Assembly: GCA_027306855.1 (NCBI GenBank)
Contig: DAHUYZ010000007.1
Span: 1-64,000, forward strand
Direction: 5' to 3'
From: Solirubrobacterales bacterium
GTDB lineage: Bacteria > Actinomycetota > Thermoleophilia > Solirubrobacterales > Solirubrobacteraceae
DNA: 64,000 bases
The position numbers and the translations under genes are program-made. Position 1 is the stretch's first letter, and the number at the start of each line of letters is the position of its first letter. Below, piece after piece: positions 16,986 through 64,000 of this stretch. Under the pieces are notes generated by a model that saw only the letters and a program-made list of their open reading frames with translations, had not been told where the DNA came from and made no database searches.

Positions 16986-17888
16986 TTATGCCGCGGCGCC
17001 CACCACCGCGCTCGACCAGTCGATAACTGAGGTCGGCTTGACGACATGGCGGCTCATGCCCAGCTCCTTCGGCTCGAGCCCGAGCGCAAGGCCAACGAGC
17101 TGGGGAAGGTGCAAGACCGGCATCTGAAGCTCGCGACCCACGACTTTCTCGGCGAGCGGCTGCTGCATGTCGAGGTTCAGGTGGCACAGCGGGCAGGGCG
17201 TCACGAGACAGTCGGCGTCGGCATCGAGCGCATCGCCCAGGTGCATGCCGGCCTGCTTGAGCGAGGCCTCCTTGTTCATCGTGATGATCGGGAAGCCGCA
17301 GCACTTGCGCATGCCGGCGTACTCGATCACGGTGCCCCCAAGCGCGTCGATCAGCCGCTCCAGATATTGGTCGCGCTGGTTCTCCGAGTCGATGCCGAGA
17401 CGGTTGCGGGGCCGGACTATGTAGCAGCCGTAGAAGGGCCCCACCTTGAGGTTGGTGAGCGGGCGCTTGACCATCGAGCGCAGCTTGTCCAAGCCGATCT
17501 CCTCGACGAGCAGCCACAGGAAGTTCTTGTTGGTGAGGCCCTTCTCGTAGGAGAGGCCCTCGCCGGCAAGCGTCTCGTTCACGTGCGCCCTGTACTGCGC
17601 GTTCGCGTCAAGGCGCTCCTGGCACTCGCTCTGGGCGCCCTGGCAGGTCGAGCAGATGTTCATCATCAGCTCCGCGCCCTGCACCTGTTGGGCGAGCGCG
17701 AACGTGCGCGCGTTGAGCGTGTCCGCGAGCTCCTGGTTGTGCTCGGCGATCACCCCGCAGCCGCAGCAATTCGCGCGGTCCAGCTCGACGAGCTCGATGT
17801 CCAGAAGCGGCGCCACCTTCGCCATCGAGCCGTGCAGCTCGGGGGTGAAGCCCCTGCTCACGCAGCCGGGCCAGTAGGCGACCTTCAT
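16986..17888 (-). CDS. sdhE: Succinate dehydrogenase CCG-domain subunit (SdhE, HdrB-like)
   Basis: A 300-residue protein with two cysteine-rich CCG domains. The first has C9, the C41-C42-G-C44 cluster and C79/C82/C89; the second has a GCYIVRP motif, MRKCCGFP and VTPCPLC. These resemble subunit B of heterodisulfide reductase and the SdhE subunit of E-type succinate:quinone reductases, where the domain replaces classical membrane anchors and binds an unusual iron-sulfur cluster. Its ATG overlaps the sdhB stop as ATGA. No SdhC/SdhD-like helices occur in the window. This SdhE is not the small flavinylation factor of the same name. Confidence 0.9.
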
Positions 17889-19042
17889 CAGTTGGTGCTC
17901 CCTTCTGTGGACTGCGGCACGCTCTGGGCGTTCCCTGCCACCACGCTCGCTACTGGCTCCTCGACGTCTTCGTCATAGCCGGTCACGTACAGGTTCAGCT
18001 CGTAGCGCGTCGGACGGCTCTCGACCTTCTCGTAGATCTTCTTGACGGCGTTCAGGTCCTGCCTTGGGATCTTGTGGCCGAACATCGCGATCTTCGGGTT
18101 GACCTTGCGTTTGACCAGGGCTCTGAGCACCACCGGCAGCGAGCTGAGCAGCTCCTTGCCGGCGGCGGGATGGAACTTGCCGAACCACGAGTTACCGCCG
18201 TAGGAGCGAGGCAGCATCTCCGCCTCGTGCAGCAGGCCATAGCCCTTGATCAGCGTCGTGATCGTTTCCTCGTGGCGGTGACCGTTGTTCTGGTCGACGA
18301 TCTTCTGGTCCGATCCGGCGATCCTGCGCAGCCTCATGATCTGGCCCATAGGGTTGACGTCCTTCGGGCAGGCCTGCACGCACTTGAAACAGTGGGTGCA
18401 GTCGTAGATGCCCAGCGGGTCCTGTGAGAGATCGATCAGGCGCTCCCGCTGCTCTTCGTCGCGAGGGTCCCCTACGAAGCGATACGCCTTGGCGAGCGCT
18501 GCCGGGCCGATGAAACCGGGGTCTACCTCCATCGCCAGGCAGTCCGACACGCACGCCCCGCACTGGATGCAGGCCATCGTCTGGGTGATGTCCACCATCG
18601 ACTCCCTCGGCACGATGTGCTCGCGCTCGGGCTGAGGGCCCTCGTTGAGCAGCCATGGCGTGACCCGCTTGACCTTCTTCCAGTGGACCGCGTCCATGTC
18701 GACGATCATGTCCTTGATTACCGGCATGTTGCCCATCGGCTCGACCTCGATCACACCGTCCTTCGCGTACGCGCGCGCATGATCGAGGTGGGTGTGACAG
18801 GCGAGGCCGGGCTCGCCGTTGATGCGCACGCCGCACGAGCCGCAGATGGCGGCGCGGCACGAGCAGCGGATGCCGATCGACCCGTCGAACTTGGCCTTCG
18901 CCTGGAGGATGCCCTCGAGCACGGAGCGGTGCGGCTCGAGCTCGATCGTGTGCTCGTCCCAGTAAGGCGCGTCCCCCGACTCCGGGTCATAGCGGCGCAA
19001 GCGCAGCGTGAATTGCTCGGGTGGGCGGTGCGTCTCGGCCAT
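17888..19042 (-). CDS. sdhB: Succinate dehydrogenase iron-sulfur subunit
   Basis: A 384-residue protein. The plant-type [2Fe-2S] ligands C62, C67, C70 and C82 are in the standard C-x4-C-x2-C-x11-C spacing. Two further cysteine groups, [11 protein letters not shown] (near residue 157) and [15 protein letters not shown] (near 215), hold the other clusters. It is about 140 residues longer than classical SdhB; the C-terminal extension (250-384) is charged and may contact SdhE. It moves electrons from SdhA to SdhE. It is coupled to both neighbours by ATGA overlaps. Confidence 0.95.
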
Positions 19043-20742
19043 CAGTATTTCCTCTCCTCAGGCTGCCACTGGGTGATCGTCACCGGCGAGTAGCTCACCT
19101 GGGGCCCACCCGCCCCATCGGCGCTCGTGGTGATGTCGATGTGCTTGAGCCACTGCTCGTCGTCGCGCTCGGGGAAGTCGGTCCTGAACTGGGCACCACG
19201 CGACTCCTTGCGCTCGATCGCGCTCACGACGATCGCCTCCGCGGAGTCGAGCATGTAGCCAAGCTCGATCGCGCCGAGCACGTCCTGGTTAAAGACGGTC
19301 CCGCGATCGTCGACGTATGCGCTGCCCGACTCGTCCTTCAATCGCCGGACGGTCTCGTGTGCGGTGCGCAGCCCCTCCTCGTCGCGATAAACGGCGACGT
19401 ACTTGTTCATCGTCTCACCCAGCTCCTGCTTGATCTCGGAGACCCGCCTGCCCGTGTGCGGGCGGGCGATGATGGCGTCGATCATCGCCATGTCCTCGCC
19501 GAGGCGAGCCTGCGGAATCTGCGGCATCGCCATCTGGGCGGCCCTCGCCGCCGCATGCTCACCGGCGCGCCGGCCGAAGATCAGCGTGTCGAGCAGCGAG
19601 TTGGCGCCCAGGCGGTTGCCTCCGTGTACCGATACGCAGGCGACCTCGCCGGCGGCGTACAGGCCCTCAATGGAGGTGGCGCCGTTGACGTCGGTCTTGA
19701 CCCCGCCCATGATGTAGTGCTGCCCGGGCCGGATCATGATCGGCTCGCGCGTGATGTCCACACCGGCGAAGTCCTTGCCGATGTTGACGATCTCGCGCAG
19801 CGCCTCCAGTGTGCGCTTGCGCGGCACCTTCGTGATGTCGAGATAGATCCCGTCTTTTCTCGCGCCGACGCCCCTACCCTCGAGGATCTCGGTCTGCTCG
19901 GCCCGCGAGACCACATCGCGCGAGGCAAGCTCCATCTTGTTGGGGGCGTACTTCTCCATGAAGCGCTCGCCCTCTGAGTTGAGCAGCACCGCGCCCTCCC
20001 CACGCGCGCCCTCGGTGATCAGCAGCCCGTTCTCGACGAGCGTCGTCGGGTGGTACTGGATCATCTCCATGTCCATCAGCGGAGCGCCGACCCTGTATGC
20101 CTGGGCGATCCCATCGCCGGTCACGATCAGAGCGTTGGTCGTCGGGCTGTAGACCTGGCCGGCGCCCCCACACGCGAGGATCACGTTCTTGGCGCCAAGG
20201 ACGTCCATCTGCCCGGAGCGCACGTCGCGCGCGATCACGCCGCAGCAGCACCCGTTTTCGTCTTGGAGCAGGGACGTGACGAACCACTCCTCATAGCGCG
20301 TCACCTGCTCGTGGTGCTTCATCAACTGCTCGTACAGCACGTGCAGGATCGCCTGTCCGGTTATGTCGGCGACGTAGGCGGTGCGCTTCATCGAGGCGCC
20401 CCCAAAAGCACGCAGGTCCAGTTCGCCGGAGTCGTTGCGGTGGAAGGTGACCCCGATGTGCTCCAGGTGCATGACCTCCTTCGGAGCCTGTGAGCACATG
20501 ATCTCGATCGCGTCCTGGTCGCCGAGGAAGTCCGATCCCTTGACCGTGTCGTACGCGTGCGAGCGCCAGTCGTCGGCCACGTTGATCGCCGCGTTGATCC
20601 CGCCCGCGGCGGCGACCGAGTGCGAGCGCACCGGATGGACCTTGCTCACGATCGCAACGTCAGCGCCGCCCTGTGCGGCCGCCAGAGCTGCGCGCTGGCC
20701 CGCGAGACCCGCGCCGATGATCAAGACGTCGTGTGCCGGCAT
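19042..20742 (-). CDS. sdhA: Succinate dehydrogenase flavoprotein subunit
   Basis: A 566-residue flavoprotein that oxidises succinate to fumarate. It has the FAD-binding GAGLAGQ (11-17), the histidine of RSHSVAAAGGIN (H41) used for covalent FAD attachment, the substrate-site HPTTLVENGLLITEGARGEG and RPGQHYIMGGVKTD, and the C-terminal capping domain. AGGGAG precedes the ATG, so this is the first gene of a tightly coupled sdhA-sdhB-sdhE operon. Confidence 0.96.
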   Translation of the reverse strand: MPAHDVLIIGAGLAGQRAALAAAQGGADVAIVSKVHPVRSHSVAAAGGINAAINVADDWRSHAYDTVKGSDFLGDQDAIEIMCSQAPKEVMHLEHIGVTFHRNDSGELDLRAFGGASMKRTAYVADITGQAILHVLYEQLMKHHEQVTRYEEWFVTSLLQDENGCCCGVIARDVRSGQMDVLGAKNVILACGGAGQVYSPTTNALIVTGDGIAQAYRVGAPLMDMEMIQYHPTTLVENGLLITEGARGEGAVLLNSEGERFMEKYAPNKMELASRDVVSRAEQTEILEGRGVGARKDGIYLDITKVPRKRTLEALREIVNIGKDFAGVDITREPIMIRPGQHYIMGGVKTDVNGATSIEGLYAAGEVACVSVHGGNRLGANSLLDTLIFGRRAGEHAAARAAQMAMPQIPQARLGEDMAMIDAIIARPHTGRRVSEIKQELGETMNKYVAVYRDEEGLRTAHETVRRLKDESGSAYVDDRGTVFNQDVLGAIELGYMLDSAEAIVVSAIERKESRGAQFRTDFPERDDEQWLKHIDITTSADGAGGPQVSYSPVTITQWQPEERKY

Positions 20743-23984: not shown

Positions 23985-25205
23985 GTGACGACGAAGATCA
24001 AGGTCGACAAACCGATCGTCGAGCTCGACGGCGACGAGATGACCCGCATCATCTGGGCGCTGATCAAGGAACGCTTGATCCTGCCCTATCTGGACATCGA
24101 GCTGGACCGCTACGACCTGCGCATCGAGAGCCGTGACGCGACCGACGACGCGATCACGGTGCAGGCGGCGGAAGCGATCAAGCGCCATGGGGTCGGCGTG
24201 AAGTGCGCGACGATCACGCCGGATGAGGCGCGCGTGGAGGAGTTCGGCCTGAAGCGCATGTATCCGTCGCCGAACGGCACGATCAGGAACATCCTCGGCG
24301 GGGTGATCTTCAGGGAGCCGATCGTGATCTCGAACGTCCCGAGACTGGTGCCGGGGTGGACGAAGCCGATCGTGATCGGCAGGCACGCCTTCGGCGACCA
24401 GTACCGCGCGACCGATCTCGTCGTGCCGGGCGAGGGGAGGCTGACGCTCACGTTCACGCCGAGCGAGGGCGGCGAGCCGATCGAGCTCGACGTCTATGAC
24501 TTCAAGGCCGGTGGGGTCGCGATGGCGATGTACAACCTCGACGACTCGATCAGGGACTTCGCGCGCGCGGCTATGCGCTACGGGTTGGCGCGAGGCTACC
24601 CGGTCTACCTGTCGACCAAGAACACGATCCTCAAGCGCTATGACGGCCGCTTCAAGGATCTCTTCCAGGAGATCTACGACAGCGAGTTCAAGGACTAGTT
24701 CCAGGCGGCTGGATTGACTTACGAACACCGGCTGATCGACGACATGGTCGCAGCCGCTCTGAAGTGGGAGGGCGGGTATGTGTGGGCGTGCAAGAACTAC
24801 GACGGCGACGTCCAGTCCGACACGGTCGCTCAGGGCTTTGGCTCGCTGGGGCTGATGACGAGCGTGCTGATGAGCGCCGACGGCAAGACGGTGGAGGCGG
24901 AGGCCGCGCATGGGACCGTCACGCGCCACTATCGCTTCCACCAGCAGGGCAAGCCGACATCTACCAATCCGATCGCCTCGATCTTCGCGTGGACGCGGGC
25001 GTTGGAGGCTCGCGGGCGGATGGACGGCACGCCCGCCGTCAGCGAGTTCGCCGGAACGCTCGAGCGCGCCTGCGTACAGACAGTTGAAAACGGCTATATG
25101 ACCAAGGATCTAGCGCTGCTGATCGGCGAAGACCAGGCGTGGCAGACCACCGAGGAGTTCCTGGCCTCGATCGAGGAAACATTGAAGCGAGAGATGGTGG
25201 CCTGA
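23985..25205 (+). pseudogene. icd: NADP-type isocitrate dehydrogenase interrupted by an in-frame TAG
   Basis: One continuous frame of 407 codons encodes the whole dimeric, eukaryote-like isocitrate dehydrogenase, but codon 238 is TAG (24696-24698). The halves keep all signatures: [23 protein letters not shown] and [12 protein letters not shown] before the stop; [23 protein letters not shown] and [12 protein letters not shown] after it. Related enzymes normally have lysine where the TAG stands (EFKDKFEAAG), so AAG to TAG is the simplest change. Both halves look otherwise under selection. Options are a recent loss, a sequencing error, read-through, or two peptides with re-initiation at TTG 24714. 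The enzyme oxidises isocitrate to 2-oxoglutarate; mdh follows. Confidence 0.85.
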
Positions 25206-59916: not shown

Positions 59917-61722
<1,806 letters not shown>

Positions 61723-61726
61723 CGCA

Positions 61727-61972
61727 TCACTCTTGGGCGCTCGTGGCCTTGGCCTCGGCTGCTCGGCGCAGCAATCTGACGATCACGGCGAGCTGGCGAT
61801 TGGCGATCTCCTCGGTACCGTCGCCTTCGAGCGGCAGGACTTTGACCGTGACGGTCAGCCCATCGGCCTGCGTGTCTGAGCCACCGGGCGCGGGAGCGCG
61901 CTGGCAGGCAGAGCGACGGCTCGATCTCCGTAGTACGGCTGATTGTTTGCGGGCTCGGTTCGATGCGTCCAC
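61727..61972 (-). CDS. Small protein upstream of the recombinase, unknown function
   Basis: An 81-residue frame ending five bases before the recombinase ATG. A basic N-terminal half is followed by a strand and an amphipathic helix (LTVTVKVLPLEGDGTEEIANRQLAVIVRLLRRAAEA). Its position suggests a directionality factor or another accessory protein for the recombinase, but this is only context. Confidence 0.5.
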   Translation of the reverse strand: MDASNRARKQSAVLRRSSRRSACQRAPAPGGSDTQADGLTVTVKVLPLEGDGTEEIANRQLAVIVRLLRRAAEAKATSAQE

Positions 61973-61996
61973 GTCTACCTCGATCCGGGAGAAGTC

Positions 61997-63139
61997 TCAA
62001 GTCCGATGCCGCTGAGGACTCCGCCGGGCCGCCTGGCAGCGCGGGCCTTGGCGAGACCAGTGCGTGATCCGGGCTCGGGCGATAGGCACGTAGGCCGCTT
62101 CGCGCTCGATCCCGAGGAAGCGCGCGCCCTCAAGCAGAGCGGCGGCGCCGGTGCTGCCCGAGCCGGCGAATGGGTCGAGCACGAGCCCGCCTGGCGGGGT
62201 GAGTAGCCGCACGAGCCAGCGCATCAGGTCGATCGGCTTGACGGTCGGGTGGATGTTCGCGACCGGATGGTCCTCGCAAAGCTGCTCGTTGCGGGCGCCG
62301 ATCTTGAAGGTCTGCACGACCCGGCGAGGCAGCGCCTCGCATCCGGCGTCGCGCTCCCGGCGGGACGCCTTCGCTGCGTAGAAGAAGCGATGGCGCTCCC
62401 CGAGCAGTCCGATTGGGCAATCGGGTTCGCATTGGGCTCCGTTGCATGACTCGCCGTGCGAGAGGAGCAGGTTGGCTGGCCATCTCCCCTGCGGGCTGGC
62501 GGTGATCCGGCGGCCGTGCGCGCGTCCTTCGGTCGGGCAGTCCTGCTGCGAGAGCTCGACGCGACAGGCGTCGATGTTCATCGCGCCGGTGCCGTGCTCG
62601 GCGAGGTTGTGCTCGGTGCTGCCGTCGAGCGGTCGTCGTGCGAGCATGATCGGCTCCCAGGCGGGCTTCAGGCCCGTGCCGAGTCCGCCTGGGAGGACAC
62701 GGGTCGCGGGGTATCCCTGGCCTTGTATCCACATGAGGACGTCGCGGAGTTCGAGCCCGGCTTCTTCGAGGCCGCGTGCCAGGAGGTGGAAGGTGCGCGG
62801 TGCGGCGAACGCAGCGAGGTGGCCGCCGGGCTTGAGTACCCGCAGACACTCTGCGCTCCACTGTGCGCTGAAGCTCTGAAACGCCGCGCTCGGGTCGGCG
62901 TTGGGAGCACGCCGTCCGGGCTTATGCGCCGGGTCGAGCGCGCTGGGCCGGTCCCATGTCATGTTGTTGAAGTTGATGCCGTATGGCGGGTCGGTGATGA
63001 TCACATCAACGCTCGCGGCATCGAGCGTCGGGAGCGCCTTCAGGCAGTCGGCGTTCTTGATCTGCCAGCGTCGCGGGCGACTCGCTCGCCGCGACCTGCC
63101 GGCTCGGGTCTGCCCGTTATTGGATCGCGCGGAAGCCAT
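61997..63139 (-). CDS. DNA methyltransferase (N6-adenine / N4-cytosine, DPPY type)
   Basis: A 380-residue enzyme from the ATG at 63139, with GAGGAGG eight bases upstream. The catalytic motif IV is DPPYGI (50-55) and the SAM-binding motif I is DPFAGSGSTGAAAL near residue 330; this order (IV before I) is the beta class. LRVLKPGGHLAAFAAPRTFHLL and HPTVKPIDLMRWLVRLLTPPGG are family landmarks. A target-recognition region with several cysteines lies between. No partner endonuclease is visible, so it may be a solitary methylase protecting the element. Confidence 0.92.
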   Translation of the reverse strand: MASARSNNGQTRAGRSRRASRPRRWQIKNADCLKALPTLDAASVDVIITDPPYGINFNNMTWDRPSALDPAHKPGRRAPNADPSAAFQSFSAQWSAECLRVLKPGGHLAAFAAPRTFHLLARGLEEAGLELRDVLMWIQGQGYPATRVLPGGLGTGLKPAWEPIMLARRPLDGSTEHNLAEHGTGAMNIDACRVELSQQDCPTEGRAHGRRITASPQGRWPANLLLSHGESCNGAQCEPDCPIGLLGERHRFFYAAKASRRERDAGCEALPRRVVQTFKIGARNEQLCEDHPVANIHPTVKPIDLMRWLVRLLTPPGGLVLDPFAGSGSTGAAALLEGARFLGIEREAAYVPIARARITHWSRQGPRCQAARRSPQRHRT

Positions 63140-63141
63140 GC

Positions 63142-64000
63142 TCACTCCTCCTCTGCTTGTGATTGGCCGAGCCAGTCGACGGGCTGTTCGGGCTGCTCGG
63201 CGGAGATGAAGATCGGCGCGAACGGACCCCGCTGGGTGAGATCGTCCAGGGTCACGAAGGACACGGGGATAGTGCCGAGGTGGTCCTTCGCTGGGTCGGA
63301 GTGGTGCAGCGCGAGGGTGCGCTGGATGCGCTGGTGCATGCGCTCGCGCGGCTGGTCGGCGAGGACGATCAGTAGGTGCGGGAAGGAGCGGTAATGGCTG
63401 CGCCATAGCGGCTCGGGCTCCTCCTCGCCGGGTGTGCTCGGTGGCGCGTAGTAGCGAAGCCTGGTGTAGCGCGTGATCTTGCTGGCGAGCTGCTCCGCTG
63501 GGCGGGCGGTGCCACGGTCGAGCTCGATCCACCGCTGGTGCAGCGTGATCGCGCCGTCTTTGTCGACCTGGAGATACGTCAGCAGCGCGTCGGCGATCAC
63601 TAGCTCGGCGGGCCGTCGTCCTCGCCAGGGGGAGATAGGGTGCGCGATCTCGTGCCGCCAGGAGTCAGGGCCGCACTCATCCTCCCGCTCGCGCGCGGCC
63701 TTCACGAACGCGATGCCGACGTCGTTGACCGCGATGGTGTGCGCGCGCAGCGGCCCTTCGGCCTGCGCGCAGGTCGGCACGCGCCTGCGCGGCTCGGCGC
63801 GCGGTCCCGCGGTCTCGACGGCGTCAGCACCGGCCTCGGTGAGAAACCAGTGCGAGAGCCTGCCGGGGGCCTGTACACGGTCGACGAGCTGCCGGTCTAG
63901 GAGCAGCCGCAGGACACGCCGCGCCCAACCAACGTTGTCATCGGGTGTGTGCAACGCGTGGAGCTGAGCCGTGGTCAGCAGCCGGTGTTGGTAGAGGCTT
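63142..64000 (-). CDS. Replication-relaxation family protein (partial, 5' end beyond window)
   Basis: The frame is open from the right edge to a TGA at 63142, three bases before the methyltransferase ATG. The first visible residues (LYQHRLLTTAQLHALHTPDDNVGWARRVLRLLLDRQLVDRV) form a winged-helix domain in which a small wing precedes a GRLSHWFLTEAG segment, as in replication-relaxation proteins of actinobacterial plasmids and integrative elements. The C-terminal part (about 90-280) has HEIAHPISPWRGRRPAELVIADALLTYLQV, a nuclease-like region. A role in plasmid-like replication or transfer is inferred. A TTG at 63954 is a possible start but the frame runs further. Confidence 0.75.
   Translation of the reverse strand, partial: SLYQHRLLTTAQLHALHTPDDNVGWARRVLRLLLDRQLVDRVQAPGRLSHWFLTEAGADAVETAGPRAEPRRRVPTCAQAEGPLRAHTIAVNDVGIAFVKAAREREDECGPDSWRHEIAHPISPWRGRRPAELVIADALLTYLQVDKDGAITLHQRWIELDRGTARPAEQLASKITRYTRLRYYAPPSTPGEEEPEPLWRSHYRSFPHLLIVLADQPRERMHQRIQRTLALHHSDPAKDHLGTIPVSFVTLDDLTQRGPFAPIFISAEQPEQPVDWLGQSQAEEE

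Follow-up and report, generated by a model that had tools for sequence, protein, structure and literature searches.

We describe three adjoining genes on the minus strand of a 64,000-nucleotide stretch of DNA from a Solirubrobacterales bacterium (assembly GCA_027306855.1, contig DAHUYZ010000007.1, positions 1 to 64,000 of the forward strand; hereafter the window), which together encode a predicted succinate dehydrogenase (SDH). They lie head to tail in the order sdhA, sdhB, sdhE, each as a complete open reading frame (ORF): sdhA (19042-20742) encodes a flavoprotein subunit of 566 aa matching TIGR01812 with 706 bits (cut-off 567), sdhB (17888-19042) an iron-sulfur subunit of 384 aa with Fer2_3 and Fer4_8 domains that scores 222 bits, above the cut-off, against TIGR00384, and sdhE (16986-17888) a 300-aa subunit with two Pfam CCG stretches (94 bits) and a heterodisulfide reductase B (HdrB) fold. 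The composition of all three is coding-like, with a GC content of 0.89-0.92 at third codon positions (GC3) versus 0.40-0.43 at second positions (GC2). Both the sdhA-sdhB and the sdhB-sdhE junction read TGATG, the TGA stop and the ATG start overlapping by one base; an earlier note on this DNA had correctly seen two overlapping junctions but had given them as ATGA, the form found in the relative L033, where the first base of sdhE is the final coding base of sdhB.

Of 80 loci from named genomes, 73 show the A-B-E order in a single orientation and seven begin at contig ends; this recurrence argues that the arrangement is an operon and not a product of chance. That sdhE forms one unit with sdhAB, as had been proposed, agrees with its travelling with them in the named loci. 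Beyond the three genes, no gene cluster is present in more than 11 of 21 loci (the window and 20 loci of the class), and a conserved sdhF-like fourth gene was considered and rejected on that count. The nearest named loci belong mostly to Solirubrobacteraceae and Solirubrobacterales, with SdhE identities of 84-90% in L121-L131; by record title, the named loci as a whole span Chloroflexota, Poribacteria, Eremiobacterota, Planctomycetales, Nitrospirales and Bacillota. The earlier view was that this type occurs mainly in archaea and some bacteria, but the sampled loci spread over many bacterial phyla. Two records have titles at odds with their Solirubrobacterales-like SdhE, L125 (title Chlamydiae, 87% identity) and L149 (Bifidobacterium breve, 81%), and are likely mislabelled or contaminated bins.

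Judged from their sequences, the three genes form an sdhA-sdhB-sdhE operon and encode a succinate:quinone oxidoreductase of the known E-type ("non-classical"). According to the available text of PMC2680327, this type is marked by a second [4Fe-4S] site in SdhB that replaces the [3Fe-4S] site, together with a CCG anchor subunit. SdhA belongs to the SDH/fumarate reductase flavoprotein family and has the histidine that binds flavin adenine dinucleotide (FAD). Our alignments hold 42, 18 and 49 rows, selected from the available sequences. In SdhB, the [2Fe-2S] site region (C60, C62, C67, C70 and C82; 18797-18865) is followed by two complete CxxCxxCxxxC motifs, C158-C168 and C215-C225 (18368-18571), both kept in 42/42 rows, where two [4Fe-4S] sites would be expected. 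The second of these, comprising C215, C218, C221 and C225, is thus present throughout; overall, 12 of the 13 cysteines are conserved in every row and C60 in 37.

The AlphaFold2 model of SdhE (predicted local distance difference test, pLDDT, 93.8) superimposes on HdrB 5odc_B with Z 37.4 and a root-mean-square deviation (rmsd) of 1.8 over 286 residues, in line with the earlier description of the third subunit as a double CCG-domain, HdrB-like protein. No solved SdhE structure was found among the PDB chains searched. SdhE has no transmembrane segment (highest 19-residue hydropathy 1.1). Its best equivalog models, the anchor of 8-methylmenaquinol:fumarate reductase (MFR; 188 bits) and HdrB (TIGR03288; 174 bits), both remain far under their cut-offs. 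Membership in HdrB itself was rejected on this score (174/345 bits) and on the neighbourhood, which consists of sdhA and sdhB with no separate HdrC partner gene; membership in the thiol:fumarate reductase TfrAB was rejected because sdhB and sdhE are separate genes and SdhB reaches only 143/385 bits against the TfrB model. The double-CCG SdhE, the two [4Fe-4S] motifs in SdhB and the lack of a haem-anchor gene with this sdhAB uphold the E-type assignment made previously. In the available text of PMC2680327 and PMC3578206, the SdhABE(F) enzymes of Acidianus and Sulfolobus likewise combine a flavoprotein, an SdhB with two [4Fe-4S] motifs and a CCG-type SdhE with no haem anchor. The present enzyme differs from them in that no sdhF was seen here, in its long SdhB tail, and in its setting in an aerobic actinobacterium with menD.

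The genome (2.23 Mb in 259 contigs, 92% complete) contains one SdhB and one CCG protein, SdhE itself. Genome-wide, Sdh_cyt gave no match even at E<=1 and b558-type SdhC gave none, so that the reported absence of an SdhC/D gene extends to the whole assembly for the two anchor families searched. A classical SDH hidden elsewhere in the genome, named in advance as an outcome contrary to the E-type reading, was rejected: there is no second SdhB and no SdhC/D of these families. The E-type assignment and the sole-SDH status are well supported by these searches, and sdhABE is probably the only complex II of this genome. The presence of menD (470 bits), two COX1 proteins (haem-copper oxidases) and one bc-type cytochrome b points to a respiratory chain that is probably aerobic and menaquinone-using.

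We then assessed how widely sdhE is distributed. An SdhE-like match is present in 182 of 199 genomes of the class, a number that partly reflects HdrB relatives; because these inflate it, we used instead an order-level count, made by hand from the class-wide SdhE match table for 53 sampled Solirubrobacterales genomes, in which 46 carry SdhE. The remaining seven all carry another SDH, so none of the 53 lacks both SdhE and an alternative SDH. Three of the seven (G184, G059 and G188) have a B-type sdhC-sdhA-sdhB set, and four of genus g14 (G139, G160, G163 and G194) have a set that we take to be Sdh1-like, going by the flavoprotein match and the mycobacterial enzyme. The g14 SdhA is of the PRK07803 kind (812 bits in L102, cut-off 819), with SdhB alongside, and the set is adjoined in L101, L102, L104 and L105 by a membrane protein of ~270-285 residues with conserved cysteines and histidines; tested in L102, this protein matched no Pfam or NCBIfam family. 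A b558-type SdhC was matched in 12 of the 53 genomes, and nine have both SdhE and b558 SdhC (in G005 over two contigs and below the cut-off). The 17 SdhE-less genomes of the class comprise the seven of the order, two in which sdhE is cut by a contig end (G033 and G144), one whose contig ends ~550 bases after sdhB (G147), and G061, G094, G149, G155, G159, G164 and G197.

Several further arrangements were seen among these loci. In L037 (8578-16587), one genome has sdhABE of the E-type and, divergent and back to back with it, a complete sdhCAB of the B-type, and B-type genes lie upstream on the opposite strand in two of the 80 named loci. The expected reaction of the B-type SdhCAB is identical to that of the E-type enzyme, whereas its membrane anchor is unrelated, and the B-type SdhA and SdhB of L037 share ~30% and 27% identity with their E-type counterparts. 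Four sampled SdhE-like genes of families f6 and f8 (L051, L052, L118 and L120) adjoin an HdrC-like gene and not sdhA, and most sampled members of these families matched Sdh_cyt; in L119 (f9), no sdhA or sdhB match lies nearby. The SdhE matches of G182, G013, G063 and G085 each contain a single internal stop codon, which is TAG in three of them and TAA in the fourth.

We consider it quite unlikely that SdhAB uses a membrane anchor that escaped detection, with SdhE as an accessory electron carrier. Profiles can miss anchors, as the likely membrane subunit of the g14 set illustrates, and Acidianus-type operons contain an extra SdhF in the available text on them, but no fourth gene is conserved among the 21 loci compared and the A-B-E set is constant across distant phyla.

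His41 of SdhA (20620-20622) occupies the position that bears covalent FAD in succinate-oxidising SDHs, and the histidine of this RSHS motif is kept in 18/18 aligned SdhA. SdhA has no twin-arginine translocation (Tat) leader (the protein begins MPAHDVLIIGAG). Given the missing leader and the presence of His41, succinate oxidation is the more likely direction of this enzyme than fumarate reduction. By the available text of PMC2680327, the MFR of Wolinella succinogenes and Campylobacter jejuni shares the sdhABE order and the CCG anchor subunit with it, but is exported by the Tat pathway and has Ala86 in place of the FAD histidine, neither of which applies here. The SdhB extension described below is also common to both, as HdrC matches the MFR SdhB model over it. 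A mainly fumarate-reducing enzyme like MFR would fit the top NCBIfam model for SdhE and the three-gene layout; yet the MFR models score far under their cut-offs (188/500, 120/600 and 447/1100 bits), which together with the missing leader and His41 led us to reject MFR membership, and the genome encodes two haem-copper oxidases and no second SdhB, so that we regard this possibility as very unlikely.

SdhB continues for ~145 residues beyond the region matched by PDB SdhB chains, whose matches end at residue 230-242, in good agreement with the ~140 extra C-terminal residues noted before. The helical part of this extension (residues 232-345; 18008-18349) resembles HdrC in profile comparison and would be expected to dock SdhE, while the tail that follows (residues 346-384; 17891-18007) is modelled with mostly very low confidence (pLDDT <50 for 352-384). 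When the 42-row SdhB alignment profile was compared with HdrC taken from loci adjoining HdrB, residues 154-344 matched with an hhalign probability of 98.7%; when the cluster region was left out, the match of residues 232-345 persisted at 96.5% with a score of 56.2, compared with a top score of 20.9 among 50 column-permuted control profiles. In the reverse direction, the HdrC of L051 matched two SdhB models, PRK12577 (positions 206-326 of 330) and that of MFR (positions 199-312 of 320), and the extension is common to other E-type enzymes. Its length varies: 98-134 residues follow the last CP motif in SdhB of other phyla and mostly 132-176 in Solirubrobacterales-like loci, three of which exceed the usual range, with up to 236. 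We conclude that the SdhB extension is very likely HdrC-related. Residues 232-345 correspond to the C-terminal part of HdrC, and the SdhB-SdhE pair therefore resembles an HdrC-HdrB pair set on an SDH core. The methanogen HdrB-HdrC (5odc, 8rvu) has the same fold in HdrB and an HdrC resembling the C-terminal region of SdhB, but in the present enzyme the HdrC-like part is fused to the SDH [2Fe-2S] domain and partnered with SdhA, and SdhE differs from HdrB in its CCGFP signature and in a variable N-terminal cysteine.

These two differences reflect the unequal conservation of the two CCG sites of SdhE. The N-terminal site (17643-17864) consists of C9, C41-C42-G43 (17760-17768), C79 and C82, the motif reading N-C-C-G-C-G here, and the C-terminal site (17184-17426) of C155, C196-C197-G198-F199-P200 (17289-17303), C232 and C235. 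For comparison, 136 loci yielded 119 distinct sequences, and after two without the N-terminal motif were dropped, 117 remained, of which 112 are SdhE and five HdrB-like. All five cysteines of the C-terminal site are invariant in the 112 SdhE rows, always in a CCGFP context, and Pro231 is equally constant; Phe199-Pro200 and Pro231 are replaced by other residues in 5/5 HdrB-like rows. The N-terminal site keeps C9, C41, C79 and C82 without exception, whereas residue 42 varies: 66 rows have Cys, 42 have Thr and four have Ser. In 11 of the 46 rows without Cys42, all near the family of the window, residue 40 is Cys, so the cysteine pair is kept but shifted one residue earlier; the other 35 have an N-terminal site with four cysteines. 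A quick tree built without these columns, many branches of which are weak, requires at least 13 changes at the variable site; one starred clade joins L156 (CTG) with L158 and L159 (CCG), and L161, L164 and L167 (Ser) form another clade. This pattern, an invariant C-terminal site beside a variable second cysteine of the N-terminal one, was not found in the literature searched. A disulfide or thiol couple as the acceptor of the SdhE electrons in place of quinone, as in thiol:fumarate reductase or HdrB, would suit the HdrB fold, the intact five-cysteine CCG sites of the window protein and the conservation of the positions equivalent to Cys81 and Cys234, the bridging cysteines of Hdr, but is highly improbable given the SdhE-specific Phe199-Pro200 and Pro231, the 46/112 proteins without Cys42 and the membrane-anchored SDHs that SdhE-less genomes carry instead.

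The CTG form of the N-terminal motif, which occurs in many SdhE, is shared with the mycobacterial electron transfer flavoprotein (ETF):menaquinone oxidoreductase EtfD (9ojn). As described in the available text of PMC13083937, EtfD has a CCG pair beside an HdrC-like dicluster, is proposed to pass electrons to menaquinone, and contains five transmembrane helices and haem; its N-terminal site, in which Thr stands for the second Cys of the CCG seen in Hdr, harbours a linear [3Fe-4S] cluster, and its C-terminal site holds a noncubane [4Fe-4S] cluster completed by His583. SdhE has neither the helices nor the haem, and the His583 equivalent is missing, being Thr81 in the window protein. By motif order, C9, C41, C42, C79 and C82 of SdhE correspond to Cys503, Cys538, Thr539, Cys581 and Cys584 of EtfD, and the structure alignment (Z 18.5, rmsd 2.9, 231 residues) starts at 1 to 495, consistent with this correspondence. 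On this basis, a linear [3Fe-4S] cluster is predicted for CTG-form SdhE and an Hdr-like cluster for the window protein. By analogy, bacterial SdhE may exist in two repeatedly switched cluster states, a five-cysteine Hdr-like form and a CTG form with a linear [3Fe-4S] cluster, with a fixed C-terminal noncubane cluster and quinone reduced in the HdrB disulfide cavity; this wider scheme is tentative, and we hold it to be rather doubtful. If true, linear [3Fe-4S] clusters would be a widespread feature of complex II in the Chloroflexota and in further phyla, and the close natural pair L156 (CTG) and L159 (CCG) would contrast both states. In the literature searched, the paper on the Sulfolobus SdhE cluster and the 2023 paper on complex II modularity aside, neither a linear [3Fe-4S] cluster in SdhE nor an HdrC-like SdhB tail is proposed, and SdhE is not mentioned in the available main text of PMC13083937.

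Altogether, it is likely that the window encodes an E-type succinate:quinone oxidoreductase that serves an aerobic member of the Solirubrobacteraceae as its sole complex II and in which SdhB and SdhE form an HdrC-HdrB-like module passing electrons to quinone. Succinate would be oxidised at the covalent FAD on His41 of SdhA, and electrons would then travel to SdhE by way of the [2Fe-2S] cluster and the two [4Fe-4S] clusters of SdhB. If the C-terminal part of SdhB and SdhE form such a module, SdhE would dock on the extension as HdrB does on HdrC. The invariant C-terminal CCG site, with an expected Hdr-like noncubane [4Fe-4S] cluster, would accept electrons from SdhB, and the N-terminal site is placed beyond it in the electron path. 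The quinone, most likely menaquinone, would take up its electrons on the side facing the membrane; a plausible site is the cavity that separates the two CCG sites, which in HdrB receives the disulfide.

Several observations weigh against this interpretation. Electron transfer from succinate to menaquinone is uphill by potentials, and the enzyme shows no visible means of using the membrane potential. The quinone type is read from a single gene, menD, and, the genome being 92% complete, a gene that was not found may belong to the portion not recovered. The extension alone gave no match among PDB chains at E<=10 and matched no Pfam family, and its structural match to HdrC is weak (8rwn_C, Z 7.7, rmsd 5.8). 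Amphipathic helices of SdhE, suggested earlier as its membrane contact, found no specific support: the scan of SdhE peaked at a moment of 0.47 (residues 132-150), and none of the stretches was specific to SdhE. Hydropathy differences from HdrB are small, the hydrophobic C-terminal stretch of SdhE is also present in HdrB, and the conserved SdhE stretch LHLPQLxGLALG has an HdrB counterpart.

Two other regions of the window were recorded. On the plus strand at 23985-25205, an isocitrate dehydrogenase gene, named by eye, is split by an in-frame TAG (24696-24698) into two ORFs, 237 and 163 aa long, that share a frame, with a single 405-aa ORF in the relative L033; the TAG could be an assembly error, a strain mutation or a site of readthrough. 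On the minus strand at 59950-63999, a 590-aa ORF that we take to resemble a serine recombinase is followed by one presumably similar to replication-relaxation proteins, and the region is possibly the edge of an integrated element.

The enzyme type itself is already known, and this lineage offers clean material on how an E-type complex with neither transmembrane helices nor haem delivers electrons to the quinone pool. If the SdhB tail is read as HdrC-like, it points to the docking place of SdhE, and the Cys/Thr variation at residue 42 ties SdhE to EtfD, whose linear [3Fe-4S] cluster was described only recently. The majority of the Solirubrobacterales sampled seem to depend on sdhABE as their single SDH, within an aerobic chain that probably uses menaquinone. 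This gives more weight to the question of how menaquinone-linked succinate oxidation proceeds without drawing on the membrane potential.

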